From: Rhodococcus opacus
GTDB taxonomy: Bacteria; Actinomycetota; Actinomycetes; Mycobacteriales; Mycobacteriaceae
Length of the DNA stretch: 64,000 nucleotides
Assembly (NCBI RefSeq): GCF_012396235.1
Contig: NZ_JAAXPA010000010.1
Coordinates: forward strand, 62,001 to 126,000
Direction: 5' to 3'
Position numbers and translations under genes: made by a program. This document shows positions 40,677 through 52,382 of the stretch, in pieces. The notes beneath the pieces are model-generated. The model saw only the letters and a list, made by a program, of their open reading frames with translations. It did no database searches and was not told where the DNA came from. Position 1 is the stretch's first letter, and every line of letters begins with the position of its first letter.

Positions 40677-42740
40677 TCAGAGGGCGAAGGGGTAGGTCTC
40701 GGGCCGCTCGCCCTCGACCCACAGACTCGTGTACTCGAGGGGTTCGAGAGCGTGGGTGGTGTCGATGTGGATCACCGCATCGAACTGGTCGGACAGCCTG
40801 GTGTGGAAGTAGTGACTCTGTCTCTCGGTCTCGGGCAGGTAGATCACGCCGATCGCCCGTTCCAGGCGTGCGGCCCGCAGGGTGTCGGCGACCGACCCGT
40901 CCTGAGTCCGGATGAGGAATGACGACTTGCCGACCTCATGGAACAGTTCCTCGACGCTGCTGGGCAAGGCGGCGCGGACCACCTTGCGTGCGGCCGGCCC
41001 ACCCCACTCGCCGGCGGCGGTGACAGTCCCCGAGTAGGTGCTGAAGCCGATCAGTCGGCAGGCGTCGCGGTAGCGTTCGCGGACCAGCTGTCCGACCGTG
41101 AGCTCGCCCTGGGTGCCGACCTCGGTGGCACGGGCATCGCCGACGTGCGAGTTGTGGGCCCACACCACGACGCGGGCGGGGCTCTTCGATCCTCGGTCGA
41201 GGTGCGCGATCAGCGCGTCGAGGGTGTCGGCCATGTGACGGTCACGGAGGTTCCACGACGCGACCCGGCCCCGGAACATGGTGCGGTAGTACTCCTCGGC
41301 ATCGCGCACGCTCCAGGCGTTGCGTTCGGCGTAGAACTGGTCGTCCTCCGCTGTCGCGCCGTCGCCACGTAGATAGTCGACCGCGTGGCGTTGAAGGTCC
41401 ATCAACTGCTCGACCACCTCGGTCTCGCAGGATTCGCCGGCACCGAATGCCGCGGCGTAACCGTAGGCCTGACCGTCCTCCCCGGAGACGTGGTCGAAGC
41501 AGGAATACCGCGCCCGAGCGCGGCGTGCCGCCTCCGGATCGACACGATCGAGGTAGTCGACGACCTCATGCATGGACCGGTGCAGGCTGTAGAGGTCGAG
41601 TCCGTAAAACCCCGCCTGACGGTCCCGACCCGGCGCGCAGCCGTCGTTGTGTTCGCGTAGCCAGGCCACGAAATCGCGGACCTCGGTGTTGCGCCACATC
41701 CAGGCGGGGAACCGTTCGAATCCGCGTAGTGATTCCTCCGCCGATGTGTCCGGGCCCTGCCCGCGCACGTACCGGTTGACCCGGTAGGCATCGGGCCAGT
41801 CGGCTTCTGCGGCGACGGCGGTGAATCCCTTGTCTTCGATCAGGATTCGGGTCATCTCGGCACGGGCGGCGTAGAACTCCCGAGTACCGTGGGAACTCTC
41901 CCCGATCAGGACTACACGTGCATCACCGACGAGGTCGAGCAGGTCGACGCGAGAGGGGATACCATTCGGTGCATCCCTGCATGCGAGCCGAACGATGCCT
42001 GCTGCGGAGGTGAATTCGAGTATCCGGGCATCTCGGGTTCCTTGTCGGCGAGTCGAGGTGGCCAGGAGTCTGCGGACTTCCTCGTCCGTCACCTGACTGA
42101 AGTTCCAGAACGAGACACCGACCGCCCGGAAGGGGAAAGGCATGGTTGCGCATACGACGTCGTCGACCATCGCTCCCAATGTGCGGCACGTCGATTCCGG
42201 CGCGGCGGGCACCGCGACGACGATCTGAGCCGGCTCTTGCTGCCGCAGCGATTCGATTGCGGCAAACATGCTGGCCCCGGTGGCCAGACCGTCGTCGACG
42301 AGTATCACGATCTTGCCCGTGACATCGAGCGGCGGCCGATTGCCGCGATATGCCGCTTCTCGCCGCACCAGCTCACGACCCTCCCGGTCCACGACCTCGC
42401 GCAGCTGCTGCGGGGTGATGGCGAGATCGCGCAGCAGATCGTCGTTGAGAACGACCGCCCCACCGCTCGCGATCGCCCCACCGCTCGCGAGCGCACCCAT
42501 GGCGAACTCGTCGTGGCCGGGCACCCCGAGCTTGCGGACGACGAAGGTGTCGAGCGGCGCATCGAGCGCGGCCGCGACCTCCCAGGCGACGGGGACCCCT
42601 CCGCGGGCGAGGCCGAGCACGACGACGCGAGGGTTCGACCGGTACGCCTCGAGCAGCTCACCCAGTACCCGCCCTGCTTCGCGGCGGTCCTGGAACACGT
42701 GTTCGGGCCTGCCTTCAGGAGTTTCCGTGGAACTGCTCAT
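40677..42740 (-). CDS. Phosphoribosyltransferase - erythromycin-esterase-like fusion (Rv2030c-like)
   Basis: This 687-residue fusion has an N-terminal phosphoribosyltransferase (about 1-225) with [16 protein letters not shown] and the PRPP loop [13 protein letters not shown] near 150. The C-terminal EreA/ChaN-like domain (about 250-685) has [15 protein letters not shown] and [11 protein letters not shown] histidine motifs. Rv2030c of M. tuberculosis, beside hspX in the DosR regulon, has the same layout. Erythromycin esterase activity is not implied; function is unknown. The ATG at 42740 has GAGGA upstream, while the frame upstream starts only with TTG. The 8-residue stretch [10 protein letters not shown] reflects a short DNA duplication near 42470. 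Confidence 0.9.
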
Positions 42741-42824
42741 CGGGTCCTCACTCCTCAATACTTCGTCTGAGTCTTGAACATGGGTGACTCTTCGATCGTG
42801 GCTTTCACGGCTTCGGCGGCGACA

Positions 42825-42838: not shown

Positions 42839-43579
42839 CAGCGGTAGCACGGGATCACCGAGCCGGGCCCCGGCGAACTACACCAGTCACTGGCGTCGTG
42901 GGGCCCGCCGATCATCCCAACTCCGGAAGACTTGTTCACCAGCCACAAGTGCTGCACTCCTCGAATCATGGCGGCTTCGCCGGTCGTTTTCGCCCCTGGC
43001 GCGCGGAGCCCTCGCGTAGTCGCGGTGGGAGTCGACCAGACGGGGGACTGTCAGGAAATCGGTTGAACTGGATCTGGCCGACACGCCGAGCTAGCTTGGC
43101 GAGAAGGGAAGGCGATGACCGAAACACTCGATCCCATGGATCAGCTGAAGATTGACCATCAGCAATTGGCTCAGCAACTGCTCGCGCAGGCAAAAGCCGA
43201 AGGTGGGGAGCTGGTTGGCCCGAACGGACTGCTCAACCAGCTCACAGCGAACGTTCTGGAACCCGCGCTCGACGCCGAGATGGATGAACACCTCGGATAC
43301 GAGAAACACCATGTCAAGGGGAGAAATGCAGGGAACTCCCGCAACGGGCGACGAGCGAAAACGGTGCTCACGGAGATCGGCCCGGTCGAGATCGAGGTCC
43401 CGCGAGACACCGACGCCTCCTTCGATCCCCAGATCGTCAAGAAGCGGCAGCGAGGCCTGACCGGCGTCGACGAAATCATTTCGTCCCCCCCTGCGAGAGG
43501 CCTGACCACAGGCGAATCGCAGCACACTTCGACGACGTCTACGGCGCATCGGTCGCGAAGGAGACGATCAGCAAGGTTC

Positions 43580-43615
43580 CCCCCGAGCACTGCGTGCAGG
43601 GAGGTGCCCCCACCG
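43580..43615. repeat. Copy 1 of a 36-bp inserted element
   Basis: A GC-rich 36-mer with C5 at the start, a GCAC-TGC-GTGC mini-hairpin and GGTGCCCCC near the end. It interrupts the IS256 reading between ISK and TDEV, exactly where the family has no extra sequence. It is identical to the copy at 43900. Confidence 0.8.
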
Positions 43616-43899
43616 ACGAGGTCCTCACGGAGATGACCGAATGGTCCGTCCGCCCCCTGGGCCCGGCGTATCCGGTGCCAAGTTCTGGATCGCCGTCCTG
43701 ACGGAAATCCTTGGGCCGCGGCGTCGCCGACGTGTGCATCGCCGTCTGGGACGGGCTCAAGGGGCTGCCCGAAGCGATCACGACCGAGTGGCCACTGACG
43801 GTGGTGCAGACCTGCCTTATTCATCTGCTGCGCAACGCCTTCCGGTACGCGTCCCGTCAGTACTGGGACGAGAAGTCACGCGACCTGCGGCCGATCTCT

Positions 43900-43935
43900 C
43901 CCCCGAGCACTGCGTGCAGGGAGGTGCCCCCACCG
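43900..43935. repeat. Copy 2 of the 36-bp inserted element
   Basis: It is identical to the copy at 43580. It interrupts the IS256 gene between the residues RPI and TAVNEPAAKEQF. Both copies are followed by ACCG. Two insertions into the same gene suggest a mobile or mobilised miniature element. Confidence 0.8.
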
Positions 43936-44251
43936 CAGTCAACGAACCAGCGGCCAAGGAACAGTTCACCGAGTTCGCCAGCAAGTGGGGACCGAGGTAT
44001 CCGGCGATCGTCCGACTGTGGGACAACGCGTGGAGCGAGAACGCGGCTGTTCCTCGACTGCGACCCCGAGATCCGCCGGGTCATCTGTTCGACGGATGTA
44101 ATCGTCAAGTCTCCACTCGTTCAGCAGGACCGTTCATTACCTCCTTTCCGCGGTCGGTTCAGAGCAGCTGTGTGGGCGGCCCCAGGTCCGTGGTCAGGGC
44201 TGGCCGCAGGCCACCGCGCAGCGGTGTGCCTTGACCTCGGAGTCAGCCACC

Positions 44252-45097
44252 CTATGATCCGTTGGATCGACCCCGGAAGGCTGCGGTCGCGTTGTGATTC
44301 GGCCGCCGCGGCTGCCATCCTGCGATAAGTGTTTCGTAGGCGCGTTCGGCAACCTCGATCACTTCTCGCTCGTGCCGGCGCAACTGTTTGTCGTTGTAGT
44401 CGTAGCCGGGACCCCGGCGGGCGTGCGCGCGGAGCGCCGGCGGTGAGGGCAAGCTTGCGCTCGACAAACCGACCACCGCATCGACTCCGGGGATGGTCAT
44501 CAAGTGGCGCACCACCGGATCGGCGAGCGCCTCGATCGCCAACTCGCGGTCTGCGGTGGCGAGTTCGCTGCCGAGAAAGTCCAGCTGCCGCAACAGCGCT
44601 CCGATTGCGTGATGCTCGTCCTCGGGCAGCTCCTGACGGAACAGCCACCGGCGCCCGGCGGCGCCGAACAGATCGCTGACCGGTGGGCGCGGCATCAGAT
44701 TGCGGTGCAAAATCGCCTGCAAGCCCGGCGGATGGTCGATGATCGCGTTCGCCCGATCGGTGGCCGTCGCGCAGGCCTCGCATACCGGGCGGAGTTTGCG
44801 GTCGCGGATCTGACGGGTCAGCGTGGGATACGACAACCGGTACCCGAGCTCTTCGAGCTCGTCGCACAGGGTGCGAGCCCACAGGTGCGGATCCTCGGCC
44901 AGCCGGCAGGTGACGTACTCGACGAACGGCCCGAACGGGTCCTCACGTGGGGGTTTGCGGACGCCGGGCGTGGTGACGCCGTCGATGTAGTTGCGGATGG
45001 TGCGACGGTTGCGTCCGGTGTGTCGGGCGATCGCCGAGATCGTCCAACCCTGCTTGTGCAGTGCGTGTACTTCCACGTCTTCCGCCCCTGTCAACAT
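44252..45097 (-). pseudogene. In-frame chimera of IS21 IstA (5') and an internally deleted IS110 transposase
   Basis: This 281-residue open frame joins two unrelated transposases. Residues 1 to about 128 are IS21-type IstA: an HTH (GWTISAIARHTGRNRRTIRNY), then PHLWARTLCDELEELGYRLS and KLRPVCEACATATDRANAI. From about 130 it becomes IS110-like: MPRPPVSDLFGAAGRRWL, LPEDEHHAIGALLRQLDFL, MTIPGVDAVVGL. This jumps to an IS110 C-terminal piece (YNDKQLRRHEREVIEVAERA). The IstA catalytic DDE part and most IS110 domains are absent, so neither enzyme is functional. It is the product of an IS insertion or deletion inside another IS. Confidence 0.75.
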
Positions 45098-45321: not shown

Positions 45322-45615
45322 TCAGGTGCAGTCTCGGCAGATCCGCTGCTCGCTGTCGACGAGGCGGCTGCGGTGGTGGACCAGGAAGCAAGTGGTGCAG
45401 GTGAATTCGTCCGTCTGCCTGGGGATGACGCGGACGGCTAGTTCTTCGCCGGACAGGTCGGCGCCGGGCAGTTCGAAGGACTCTGCGGTGTCGGTGTCCT
45501 CGACGTCCACCGCGGGGGACTGGGTGTCCTTCCGGCTGGCGGTCAGCTGTTCGAGGGACGTGTCCGTTGACTCGTCGGATTCGGTGACTCGTGGTGCGTC
45601 GTAGTCGGTGGCCAT
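45322..45615 (-). CDS. DUF4193 family protein (second copy)
   Basis: This 97-residue paralogue of the protein at 18595 has the same MATDYDAPR start, FELPGADLSGEELAVRV centre and two CxxC pairs (CTTCFLVHHRSRL and CRDC). The acidic N-terminal half differs freely. The ATG at 45615 has GAAGGT about 9 nt upstream. It lies downstream of the WhiB-like gene on the same strand with only 13 bp between, so the two probably form an operon. Confidence 0.85.
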   Translation of the reverse strand: MATDYDAPRVTESDESTDTSLEQLTASRKDTQSPAVDVEDTDTAESFELPGADLSGEELAVRVIPRQTDEFTCTTCFLVHHRSRLVDSEQRICRDCT

Positions 45616-45628
45616 GACTGTTCTACCT

Positions 45629-45967
45629 TCACGCTCTGGGTGTTCGGATCCGCCAGGTTAAAGGGTCCGGCGGCGCGCCACACTCGCGGGGTCGGGCCGG
45701 GAGGCGGGTGCGTCGGGTGAGGCGGGCACGTTCGTTCTCGGACAACCCACCCCAGATGCCATAAGCCTCGGTGGCGGTGAGGGCATGGGCGCGGCAGTCG
45801 GCGAGCACGGGGCAGTTGTGACAGACCTGTTTGGCGGCGTGCTCACGCTGGGCGCGGACGTTGCCGCGTTCACCGTCGGGGGAGAAGAACATTTCGGTGT
45901 CGGTGCCGCGGCAGGAGGCGCGGTGTTGCCAGTCCCGGTCGCGGGGGTGGTGGAAATGATGAGGCAC
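45629..45967 (-). CDS. WhiB-family iron-sulfur transcription factor (WhiB3-like)
   Basis: This 112-residue protein has the four conserved cysteines that bind a 4Fe-4S cluster: ASCRG, then CHNCP and DCRAH. The turn motif is GIWGG followed by LSENERARLTRR and a basic tail. The DGERGNVRAQREHAAKQVC segment resembles WhiB3, which senses redox state and nitric oxide and works with the sigma factor. The start is uncertain; the GTG at 45967 gives a normal length, but its ribosome site is weak. It probably forms an operon with the DUF4193 gene. Confidence 0.88.
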   Translation of the reverse strand: MPHHFHHPRDRDWQHRASCRGTDTEMFFSPDGERGNVRAQREHAAKQVCHNCPVLADCRAHALTATEAYGIWGGLSENERARLTRRTRLPARPRECGAPPDPLTWRIRTPRA

Positions 45968-46903
45968 AGCGGAATGGTCGCTTTCGGAGTGGAGCAGTGA
46001 GCCGATCCGTCGGCAAGGGCGGCGCGGCGCGTGGGTGTGGCCGGCGGGCCTGGGCTTGTTGCCGAGGGTGTGTGCAGGGCAGGCCGATGTGGCGGCGTGG
46101 GTGGGATGGACCTCCTTGGAAGCAACCGGGTCGGACCGGGCGCGTACTGCCGTGCAGTCTGAAAGTGTTGTGCGACATGACCCCTCGACACATCGCGGTT
46201 TCACTCCTGATGCCCGAGAGTCAGCAGTCGGGTAGCGGCAGCGACAGGCCGGGTTCCGGGACTGTAAACGGTGCGGCACCACGTCCACAGGGCGTGTCGG
46301 TGCGTTGATGCCTGGTCTCGACATCGGTGGGACCGGGACGAACCCGGAGGATCCACCCTTGCAGCCTCTCGAGAGGTGGTAAAGGGTGTGCTAACGATGG
46401 TAGCGACCCGGCGCTCGATGCTGAAGGGAATCGCTCGAAAGTAACTGGCATCACATCTGCAGTCTCGTCGCGAGCATCGAGGTGACCGGCTCGGTCGGCA
46501 GTTCGGCGCTTCTCCGACGTTGTCCGAGACGGCCACGACGCGGGCGGTGCCCGGGTCGCGGGACGGCAGAGCCTGACGGTACGTCCCTGCGGCCTTCCCG
46601 TAGCGGGGGATCGCGACGAGGGTGCCACCATCGCTGATGGACACACCGACCCGGTCTCGACCTGGGCGATGGGGGGAGGGTGAGCGCCGACGTCCCCAAC
46701 CCACAGGGTTCCTGGACAGGGGAGTGGCGGCCCCGTCGCCCAGGGGAGGTCCGGCGTGCGAGTGCGGTCGGTCGACGCGGGTGGCGGAGAACGTAACACT
46801 ATTGCGTGTGAATCAGATCACATGTGTGCGTGGTTGCTGACAACACCTACGCGGCCGCTCACGGCGGCGCCCCCCAAGAAACAGCGACGAAGGCAGACTT
46901 CTC
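45968..46903. other. Intergenic stretch with a possible gene fragment
   Basis: No whole gene is supported over 936 bp. On the minus strand near 46505-46650 one frame reads GGTLVAIPRYGKAAGTYRQA and ARVVAVSDNVGEAP with strongly coding-like third positions. It is flanked by low-quality sequence, so it is probably a remnant of a lost gene. Nothing else is recognised. Confidence 0.35.
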
Positions 46904-49968: not shown

Positions 49969-51152
49969 ATCAAGTACTGACCCCGCTTCGGCCGGAAAAT
50001 CATCGCCAGCAGAAAACAGCCCCACCCGTGCCGTTGCGATCCAAGCACTGACGGCCCTCGACTTCATCGCGGCGCGAGGGGCGTGTCTGGGCTTCAGGTC
50101 GACCGGCATTCTGTGATCGGCCATCCATCGGGTCGTCATCTGGATCGGGTGAACTGGGCCTTGGACGGTTCTTCCACCCGTGCCCCGGGCGATATCTGTC
50201 TGCGCGAAAGGCTCCCGGGCGGTGGATGGTTACTGACTCAGCCCGCCTGAGTCTGAATCAGGTCGGTGAGGACAAACACGTGTCAACCCCGATCGCTGCC
50301 CCGGCCAGTAGCAGTATCCACCACATCAGGTCTGTGTCGGAGAGCGCGGCGTCCGACGTCGTCGAAGTCGGATTCAAGAGCTAGCCACGAAGGGCGAGAC
50401 AGCGGTCTACGCGTCCACACTCGACCACGTGATTGCTCCCGTTCGGCGAGATCGGTCGGTGGCAGATTCTCGATCCCGGACTCGCATCGGAGAAGGCAGT
50501 CCGCTTCCGTCAAGAACCTCCAAGCCCACTGCACCAGCCTACAAAGCAACTCTGGGAAGAATTCGTTGGTGTCCGGGGCGTGGGGATGTCATGGTGCTCG
50601 GTGAGGAGGTTGTCACGCCGTTGAGCGGGCGGGTTTGCGCTTCGAGCAGATGGCGTAGATCGTATTCAGCAACGGCCACCAGGAAGCGGCCTCTCGAGAA
50701 ATATCAGAGAAATATCAGGAGTTGGCCGATTTCCCGAACGGCTGAAACGAAAGCCGGATTTCCTGGCCCACAATTGGATGGCTGTCTGGTTCAGGCCTCG
50801 TTCCGGAAACACGCAGATACGCGTTCCGCCCCGAGAGATGCGGCTCGATATCGCTGATCCGGATCGGAGTGACTCGGCCTGATGGATACCGCCGGACCTG
50901 AAGTGCAATTCTAAAGTCTGTCGTCGCTGCGGCCAACCAATGTTGTTAATTGCCAAGGTAAGCCGCGCTCGTTCTGCCTGAAGCTTGGGGCGTCGTGAGT
51001 GTGGAGCTTCAAGAGGACCGTGACTTCCTGCCCAGATCGGCGATGAGCTGGGGACGGTGAATTGTCAGTTCGGGTGAGCTTCCTGATTACCGGGAGAAGC
51101 CGCCTGCCGTTACTGTGTGCGTTCGACGGTTGCCCGGCGAAGAAGGAGACAC
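49969..51152. other. Long stretch without a confident gene
   Basis: About 1.2 kb. Open frames at 50283-50549 and 50666-50956 (minus) and 50429-50857 (plus) have no motif. The part around 50930-50960 is locally A/T-rich. GTGAC-TTCC-TGCCC at 51020-51033 is one mismatch from the island's box pattern, but lies 120 bp before the next gene. Confidence 0.4.
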
Positions 51153-52382
51153 ATGGCGGTATCACCGAGGGGTTCAGAAGGTTCGGCGAGGAAGACAACA
51201 AGGGAGATTCGTGAGTGGGCGATCGGGGCGGGGCGCGAGGTGTCATCCCGGGGCCGGATCTCGGCCGAGCTCGAGCAAGCCTTCCATGACGCTCAGGCGA
51301 AGAAGGTTCAGACAAGAACGCCGCCGGTAAAGAAGACGGCCGTGAAGAAGCGGGTCGCGCCGAAGGCGCCGGTCACGAGGACGGCCGTGAACAAGGCTCC
51401 GGCGAAGAAGTCGTCCAGGGAGATTCGTGAGTGGGCTATCGGGGCGGGGCGCGAGGTGTCTTCTCGCGGCCGGATTCCGGCCGAGCTCGAGCAAGCCTTC
51501 CATGACGCGCAGGCGAAGAAGGTTCAGACGAAATCGGCGCCGGTAAAGAAGACAGTTGCGAAGAAGACAGTTGCGACGAAGGCGGCTGCGGAGAAAACGG
51601 TCGTGAAGAAGCCAGCCGCGGCGAAGGCGCCGGTCACGAGGACGGCCGTGAACAAGGCTCCGGCGAAGAAGTCGTCCAGGGAGATTCGTGAGTGGGCGAT
51701 CGGGGCGGGTCGCGAGGTGTCTTCTCGCGGCCGGATTCCGGCCGAGCTCGAGCAAGCCTTCCATGACGCGCAGGCGAAGAAGGTTCAAGCGAAAACGGCG
51801 CCGGCGAAAAAGGCCGCTGTGAAGAAGATCGTCGCGAAGAACGCTCCGGCGCGGAAGACGGTCGTGAAGAAGGCAGCCGTGACGAAGGCGCCGGTCACGA
51901 GGACGGCCGTGAACAAGGCTCCGGCGAAGAAGTCGTCCAGGGAGATTCGTGAGTGGGCGATCGGCGCGGGTCACGAGGTGTCTTCTCGCGGCCGGATTCC
52001 GGCCGAGCTCGAGCAAGCCTTCCATGACGCTCAGGCGAAGAAGGTTCAAGCGAAAACGGCGCCGGCGAAAAAGGCCGCTGTGAAGAAGATCGTCGCGAAG
52101 AACGCTCCGGCGCGGAAGACGGCCGTGAAGAAGGCAGCCGTGACGAAGGTCCCTGCGAAGACGACGACACCCGGGAAGACACCCGCGAGGAGGGTGGCCG
52201 CGAAGACGACGGCTGCGGAGAAGACAGTGGTGAAGATGGCTTCGGCGAAGAAGTCGTCCAGGGAGATTCGTGAGTGGGCGATCGGGGAGGGGCGCGAAGT
52301 GTCCCCTCGTGGCCGGATTTCGGCCGAAATCGAGCAGGCCTTCCGCGACGCTCAGGCGCAGATGCCGGTCGCGGTCGGCTGA
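51153..52382 (+). CDS. Five-repeat Lsr2-type DNA-binding protein with histone-like linkers
   Basis: This 409-residue, strongly basic protein consists of five copies of an Lsr2 C-terminal-like motif at about residues 17-48, 89-120, 176-207, 263-294 and 370-401. Each reads like REIREWAIGAGREVSSRGRI then PAELEQAFHDA. The RGR core is the AT-hook-like minor-groove clamp of Lsr2, and IREWA and RGRIPAE match that family. The linkers (41-75 residues) are Lys/Ala/Pro-rich, like histone H1 or HupB tails, with repeated PAKK, VKK and KAP. The Lsr2 oligomerisation domain is absent. It should coat or bridge AT-rich DNA at several sites. The ATG at 51153 has AAGGAG 5 nt upstream. Confidence 0.85.
   Translation: MAVSPRGSEGSARKTTREIREWAIGAGREVSSRGRISAELEQAFHDAQAKKVQTRTPPVKKTAVKKRVAPKAPVTRTAVNKAPAKKSSREIREWAIGAGREVSSRGRIPAELEQAFHDAQAKKVQTKSAPVKKTVAKKTVATKAAAEKTVVKKPAAAKAPVTRTAVNKAPAKKSSREIREWAIGAGREVSSRGRIPAELEQAFHDAQAKKVQAKTAPAKKAAVKKIVAKNAPARKTVVKKAAVTKAPVTRTAVNKAPAKKSSREIREWAIGAGHEVSSRGRIPAELEQAFHDAQAKKVQAKTAPAKKAAVKKIVAKNAPARKTAVKKAAVTKVPAKTTTPGKTPARRVAAKTTAAEKTVVKMASAKKSSREIREWAIGEGREVSPRGRISAEIEQAFRDAQAQMPVAVG
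51371..52040 (+). repeat. 261-bp tandem coding repeats
   Basis: The string GGTCACGAGGACGGCCGTGA occurs at 51371, 51632 and 51893, exactly 261 bp (87 codons) apart. It is followed each time by a nearly identical linker end plus DNA-binding module. Such near-identity at DNA level implies recent duplication, and copy number may vary between strains. Confidence 0.85.

Follow-up and report, generated by a model that had tools for sequence, protein, structure and literature searches.

The window, a 64,000-nucleotide stretch of the Rhodococcus opacus genome, carries on its plus strand a gene for a basic protein built from repeated Lsr2-type DNA-binding heads. The following features lie at and near this gene:

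45322..45615, minus strand: DUF4193 gene with two Cys pairs, a recurrent neighbour (PF13834, 3.7e-39)
45632..46324, minus strand: WhiB-domain frame beside the DUF4193 gene (PF02467, 7.3e-25)
51111..51128, plus strand: family-specific element TACTGTGTGCGTTCGACG, 18 bp, 24 bp before the start codon
51143..51148, plus strand: Shine-Dalgarno-like AAGGAG, at a position that suits a start at 51153
51153..52382, plus strand: multi-headed Lsr2-like protein (409 aa, 43.7 kDa, pI 11.2, zero cysteine)
51153..51185, plus strand: N-terminal tail MAVSPRGSEGS, alike across the multi-head family
51186..51293, plus strand: Lsr2 DNA-binding head 1 (PF23359, 48.5 bits; G000:C2:113186-113293)
51294..52244, plus strand: span of the four basic Lys/Ala/Pro linkers (51294-51401, 51510-51662, 51771-51923, 52032-52244), with heads 2-4 between them
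51331..52149, plus strand: tandem array of 261-bp units (3.1 copies, 93% matches)
51402..51509, plus strand: Lsr2 DNA-binding head 2 (PF23359, 49.4 bits)
51663..51770, plus strand: Lsr2 DNA-binding head 3, extra relative to four-headed relatives (PF23359, 49.4 bits; an insertion in the alignment)
51924..52031, plus strand: Lsr2 DNA-binding head 4 (PF23359, 53.0 bits)
52245..52352, plus strand: Lsr2 DNA-binding head 5, of the last-head type (PF23359, 47.7 bits)

The single intact 409-residue frame given in the preliminary description was confirmed, being open from ATG to TGA. The ATG at 51153 is supported by the Shine-Dalgarno-like sequence and by the relatives, which begin alike (mostly MAVSPR). 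GC content at the three codon positions was 0.60/0.54/0.80, and the third-position value resembles that of three other frames in the window. Five copies of a motif with IREWA and RGRIPAE had been described; IREWA was indeed present five times, but RGRIPAE was found only in heads 2, 3 and 4, heads 1 and 5 reading RGRISAE, and the RGR core is present in all five. The head starts, like the IREWA motifs, are 72, 87, 87 and 107 residues apart, in agreement with the spacing of 72-107 residues reported before.

The identity of the repeats as Lsr2 DNA-binding heads, proposed earlier from the motifs, was borne out by the Pfam profile PF23359 (Lsr2_DNA-bd), which matched five stretches of the protein with an E value of 3.1e-60 and 199.6 bits (cut-off 26.9). 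Moreover, each of the five heads exceeded this cut-off when the genome was searched with the family profile, and the Lsr2-like family of PHROGs matched the protein in five stretches (2.8e-43). A sequence comparison of one head, head 3, with solved structures retrieved the Lsr2 domains 2KNG (4.2e-6), 6QKQ (5.7e-6) and 6QKP (6.2e-6). A chance resemblance is excluded by the PF23359 score and by completed plasmids and genomes in which relatives have between three and six heads. A methyltransferase match from PADLOC (3e-8), at residues 242-298, falls on head 4 and a portion of its linker and was rejected as spurious; Rfam gave no match in the window at gathering scores.

The preliminary description had also stated that the N-terminal oligomerisation domain of Lsr2 is missing, and this held: Pfam PF11774 was not matched in the protein at E<=0.1. 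The same model matched all three single-head Lsr2 proteins found in the same genome (5e-28, 6e-21 and 2e-18), these being the single-head frames among 150 of 208 candidates scored in the PF23359 search. The linkers, 36-71 residues long and basic, would span about 12-25 nm if stretched (our own estimate, at 0.35 nm per residue). Counted as K+R minus D+E, the five heads together carry a charge of -2 and the remainder of the protein +64. Pfam HC2 matched the protein (7.3e-20, 72.3 bits against a cut-off of 40), a score to be read in light of the low-complexity composition, and it reached 79 bits on the paralogue L021; the NCBIfam HC2 and H1 models, subject to the same composition, stayed below their cut-offs (67.5 against 80 and 43.1 against 135). 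The NCBIfam family NF050153 of the H-NS-like Rv3852 was not reached either (40.5 bits against a cut-off of 100). Of the suggested mixture of Lsr2 with H1 and HupB features, the H1/HC2-like composition of the linkers was supported; an HU domain was not matched by Pfam at E<=0.1.

The protein is not the lone five-headed oddity it had first appeared to be; its relatives form a gene family, usually with four heads. A second multi-head gene lies on another contig of the same genome (L021, 8483-9901; four heads in a 473-codon frame). Relatives were found by protein search (E<=1e-10) in 10 of 28 Rhodococcus genomes, nine measuring 8.0-10.3 Mb and the tenth 5.8 Mb; since the other 18 gave no match at this threshold, the family is not core. 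R. jostii RHA1 (G005) carries five multi-head genes, on the chromosome and two plasmids. At E<=1e-20 in a class sample of 296 genomes, none of the 295 others and only the window's own genome appeared among the matches listed, with six candidates scored per genome, a setting in which distant forms may be missed. A single Lsr2 head is nearly universal (248 of 249 genomes of the order sample), and Lsr2-type heads occur in all 28 Rhodococcus genomes. Two heads in one frame, as judged from coordinates and frame lengths, occurred in none of 22 non-Rhodococcus genomes picked for re-inspection because of many heads or long frames. Furthermore, relatives were present in 21 of 72,556 plasmid records, all from Rhodococcus, and in none of 50,697 phage records; viral contigs likewise held no relative of the protein.

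The distribution of copies along the replicons was also evaluated. Twelve chromosomal copies, one of them frame-broken, lay nearer to contig ends than a uniform distribution predicts (KS p 0.0015), where contig ends were taken as replicon ends and accessory genes may gather at ends anyway; 17 plasmid copies showed no end bias (KS p 0.58). The test omits the plasmid records annotated as circular (L078 and L087), the L076 copy, hits H18 and H20, a record that was not listed and every copy from a fragmented genome.

Public labels for family members differ (Lsr2, hypothetical protein, shortened frames, opposite-strand frames). At L088 (3989-5332), L089 (3317-4480) and L077, for example, the annotated genes are short opposite-strand frames or a shortened multi-head frame. 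The family may therefore be under-counted in databases, and the plasmid gene table consulted is incomplete by its own note. Single-head-size Lsr2 genes were observed 1.5-2 kb downstream of the multi-head gene on RHA1 pRHL3 (L077, 9711-10055) and on PD630 plasmid 5 (L084, 6630-6977). A distinct two-head protein is encoded at L057 (5854-6552, minus strand), with a hydrophobic N-terminal stretch, an acidic spacer and two adjacent Lsr2 heads; judged by this layout, it could be a membrane-anchored Lsr2 head pair.

Head number was surveyed by profile count in 37 intact genes (sets of 25 and 12): two have three heads, 29 have four, five have five and one has six. RGR is present in 149 of the 153 profile-defined heads, RGQ and HGR in two each. 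Within the tandem array of the window gene, the 261-bp units are 90% (heads 2-3), 86% (heads 2-4) and 96% (heads 3-4) identical, and an alignment with seven four-headed relatives shows head 3 and its linker as inserted sequence. As judged from this alignment, the extra head is an internal duplication of 261 bp. The count of five heads carries the caveat that it comes from a 109-contig assembly and that two assemblies of R. opacus PD630 differ by one head in the same gene (four against five; L079 CP003957.1 and L081 NZ_CP080955.1), reflecting either repeat collapse in one assembly or a change in culture.

In the set of 25 genes, the nearest head by DNA identity was a last head of another protein for 22 of 25 last heads and a first head of another protein for 17 of 25 first heads (a head of the same protein for five), and 28 of 55 middle heads were nearest to a head of their own protein. 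Middle heads of one protein were 91.7% identical (36 pairs), against 80.0% for the 1449 pairs that compare different proteins. These patterns indicated that the end heads are fixed and that the middle ones are homogenised or amplified, as by unequal recombination. Pairwise dN/dS, calculated from head pairs that are not independent of one another, was 0.18 for first, 0.29 for middle and 0.35 for last heads, and 0.16 among the window's own heads. The heads are thus under purifying selection and conserved; the linkers vary in length and order. Frame-broken members were seen at L031 (5748-9837)/L040, L054 (5905-6843) and L076 (11896-13224), one of them split across two frames 2.5 kb apart; in the other two the frame breaks before including the last head.

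Conservation extends upstream of the gene. The window contains an exact copy of the element TACTGTGTGCGTTCGACG, against 0.04 copies expected when up to 3 mismatches are allowed. Forms with 2 mismatches or fewer precede 34 of the 37 intact genes, 24-27 bases from the start codon and once 46; L025, L069 and L056 carry altered forms. When 25 upstream regions were aligned, a block around 51094-51128 had a mean pairwise identity of 0.86 (best 25 columns), and the other 25-column steps ending before column 206 gave 0.18-0.59. In addition, whole genomes were searched for a 19-mer holding the element. With at most one mismatch there were two sites in G000 (at 2 of 2 genes), four in G005 (4 of 5) and three in G008 (3 of 3), all at multi-head genes. 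With 2-3 mismatches there was one site elsewhere in each of G000 and G005, and three in each of G001 and G026, two genomes without the multi-head family at E<=1e-10. The reversed 19-mer, used as a control, gave 0-1 sites per genome, and no exact copy of the element was found in viral contigs. Because close sites in these three carrier genomes occur only at multi-head genes, the element is specific to the family and is not a shared regulon box. Reading frames across it shift between genes, indicating that it acts as DNA or RNA and not as a peptide. It possibly comprises a -10 region and the start of the leader; a promoter scan gave no sigma-70-type match at the gene start, so TACTGT as the -10 box is only a guess.

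Similarity to other family loci covers the multi-head gene and about 390 bp upstream of it; the genes that flank it in the window have their matches elsewhere in the genomes that carry those loci. In 18 of 41 loci a DUF4193 gene, complete or in part, is found within 6 kb of the multi-head gene; it lies upstream or downstream, at 0.6-5.6 kb, and on the opposite strand every time, and a WhiB relative is found in 11 of the 41, once at 8.5 kb. Across whole genomes, the DUF4193 matches within 6 kb of a multi-head gene were three of nine in G005, two of five in G000 and none of four in G008, and genomes without the family also hold DUF4193 genes (three in G026, one in G001). DUF4193 is therefore a frequent companion and not a fixed partner, and the relation is one of association only. 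The other large groups of shared neighbours were discarded, being anti-sense frames of the DUF4193 gene or stretches upstream of close copies. Elsewhere in the window, a 693-residue frame (40680-42758) fuses a phosphoribosyltransferase domain with an erythromycin-esterase-family domain.

Silencing of adjacent IS scars, as suggested at the outset, found no support. A mutator-family transposase that occupies two frames (43115-44325), and whose match leaves the central part of the profile uncovered, lies about 7-8 kb upstream. GC content is 61-71% in every 2-kb step of the window, so this remnant is not an evident target.

The Lsr2 heads, the lack of a match to the dimerisation domain and the basic linkers led us to read the protein as a covalent multimer, and we consider it probable that it is a nucleoid-associated protein acting as a covalent string of Lsr2 heads. 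Lsr2 and H-NS are described as reading AT-rich minor grooves through Q/RGR, with oligomerisation as a key feature of silencers (PMC6936261, PMC7074111, PMC3374832), and the RGR of Lsr2 has been called AT-hook-like (PMC6936261). By analogy with Lsr2, the RGR loop of each head would enter the AT-rich minor groove, and the basic, probably disordered linkers would bind the DNA backbone non-specifically. Several weak heads would together provide avidity, so that one molecule could clamp distant AT-rich sites on one duplex or bridge two duplexes without the Lsr2 dimerisation domain. The outcome may be bridging or coating, and silencing or protection of DNA. The conserved RGR, the purifying selection on the heads and the family's own upstream element also favour this reading; the surroundings of the gene, which are not AT-rich, and the 18 of 28 Rhodococcus genomes with no match at E<=1e-10 count against it. 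Moreover, the N-terminal domain of Lsr2 is reported to bind the (P)AKKA tail of HU in M. tuberculosis (PMC6936261); as the linkers are of this type, they might attach to canonical Lsr2 through the same domain and join its filaments.

The opposite role, that of an antagonist of canonical Lsr2, was also considered. The heads would then fill AT-rich sites and break Lsr2 filaments, so that the genes of the carrying replicon are expressed. The unmatched dimerisation domain and the copies on 21 plasmid records agree with such a counter-silencer, possible targets exist in the three canonical Lsr2 proteins of this genome and in the Lsr2-type heads of all 28 genomes of the genus, and derepression of CgpS targets by a truncated CgpS, its N-terminal part, has been reported (PMC7074111). 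However, a single head would seem enough for antagonism, without three to six kept under selection, and multivalency should strengthen occupancy and bridging; on these arguments we regard this role as unlikely. Quite unlikely, in our judgement, is a general compaction or stress-protection protein of the H1/HC2 type, in which the linkers act and the heads add a weak AT preference. The Pfam HC2 scores of the protein and of its paralogue L021 and the net positive charge carried by the linkers favour it, but the NCBIfam HC2 and H1 models stayed below their cut-offs, matches of this kind can stem from composition, and it is the heads that are conserved and the linkers that vary.

A functionless product of assembly or slippage from a single-head gene, or a drifting repeat, could be imagined from the PD630 assemblies, a 15-bp repeat within a linker and the three frame-broken copies. 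This explanation is mostly refuted and very improbable. Genes with several heads are present in completed plasmids and genomes; the 261-bp units of the window differ by 4-14%, unlike an assembly duplication, and both purifying selection on the heads and conservation of the upstream element argue against drift.

Returning to the covalent string of heads, a wider picture is plausible, though still tentative. In rhodococci of the jostii/opacus group, a nucleoid protein may have evolved that builds Lsr2 multivalency into a single chain. Its end heads would stay fixed while recombination lengthens or shortens the array between them, a promoter element of its own would drive it, and a DUF4193 gene (and a WhiB gene) would often accompany it; head number would tune how strongly large accessory replicons are bridged, whatever the oligomerisation of Lsr2. 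Oligomerisation is described as a requirement of xenogeneic silencers, and natural proteins with three, four, five or six heads and no recognisable dimerisation domain offer a direct test of whether covalent multivalency suffices for AT-rich targeting, bridging and silencing. They also add an apparently undescribed gene family to soil-dwelling rhodococci with large plasmids and genomes. Titles and abstract openings in the literature on Lsr2 and on R. opacus nucleoid proteins contained no description of a multi-head Lsr2, and the authors of a 2020 article state that they are aware of no published data on the function of plasmid-borne Lsr2 (PMC7074111). The Lsr2 head is thus known, and the string of heads is apparently undescribed as far as this literature search reaches.

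Compared with canonical Lsr2 of M. tuberculosis (PF11774 and PF23359), the family shares the DNA-binding head, the RGR minor-groove motif and the IREWA stretch. It differs in having three to six heads instead of one, long basic linkers and no dimerisation domain found; canonical Lsr2 has about 110-130 residues, whereas the intact proteins of the 25-gene set have 329-579 residues from the start codon and the window protein 409. Lsr2 paralogues are known, such as LsrL of Streptomyces. Like MSMEG_1060 and CgpS, the multi-head proteins are accessory, partly plasmid-borne and present besides a core Lsr2; the plasmid and phage homologues, compared here by their published descriptions, are presented as full-length Lsr2, none with repeated heads. 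The Lys/Ala/Pro-rich basic stretches recall HC2 H1-like proteins and the AKKA tail of HupB, but by Pfam the window protein has no HU domain, and its basic stretches alternate with heads. Closest among the published descriptions consulted is the Ku-Lsr2 fusion of cluster J phages, which likewise uses the DNA-binding part of Lsr2 as a module in another protein (PMC8612146); as described, one head is joined to Ku there, whereas here the heads form a string.
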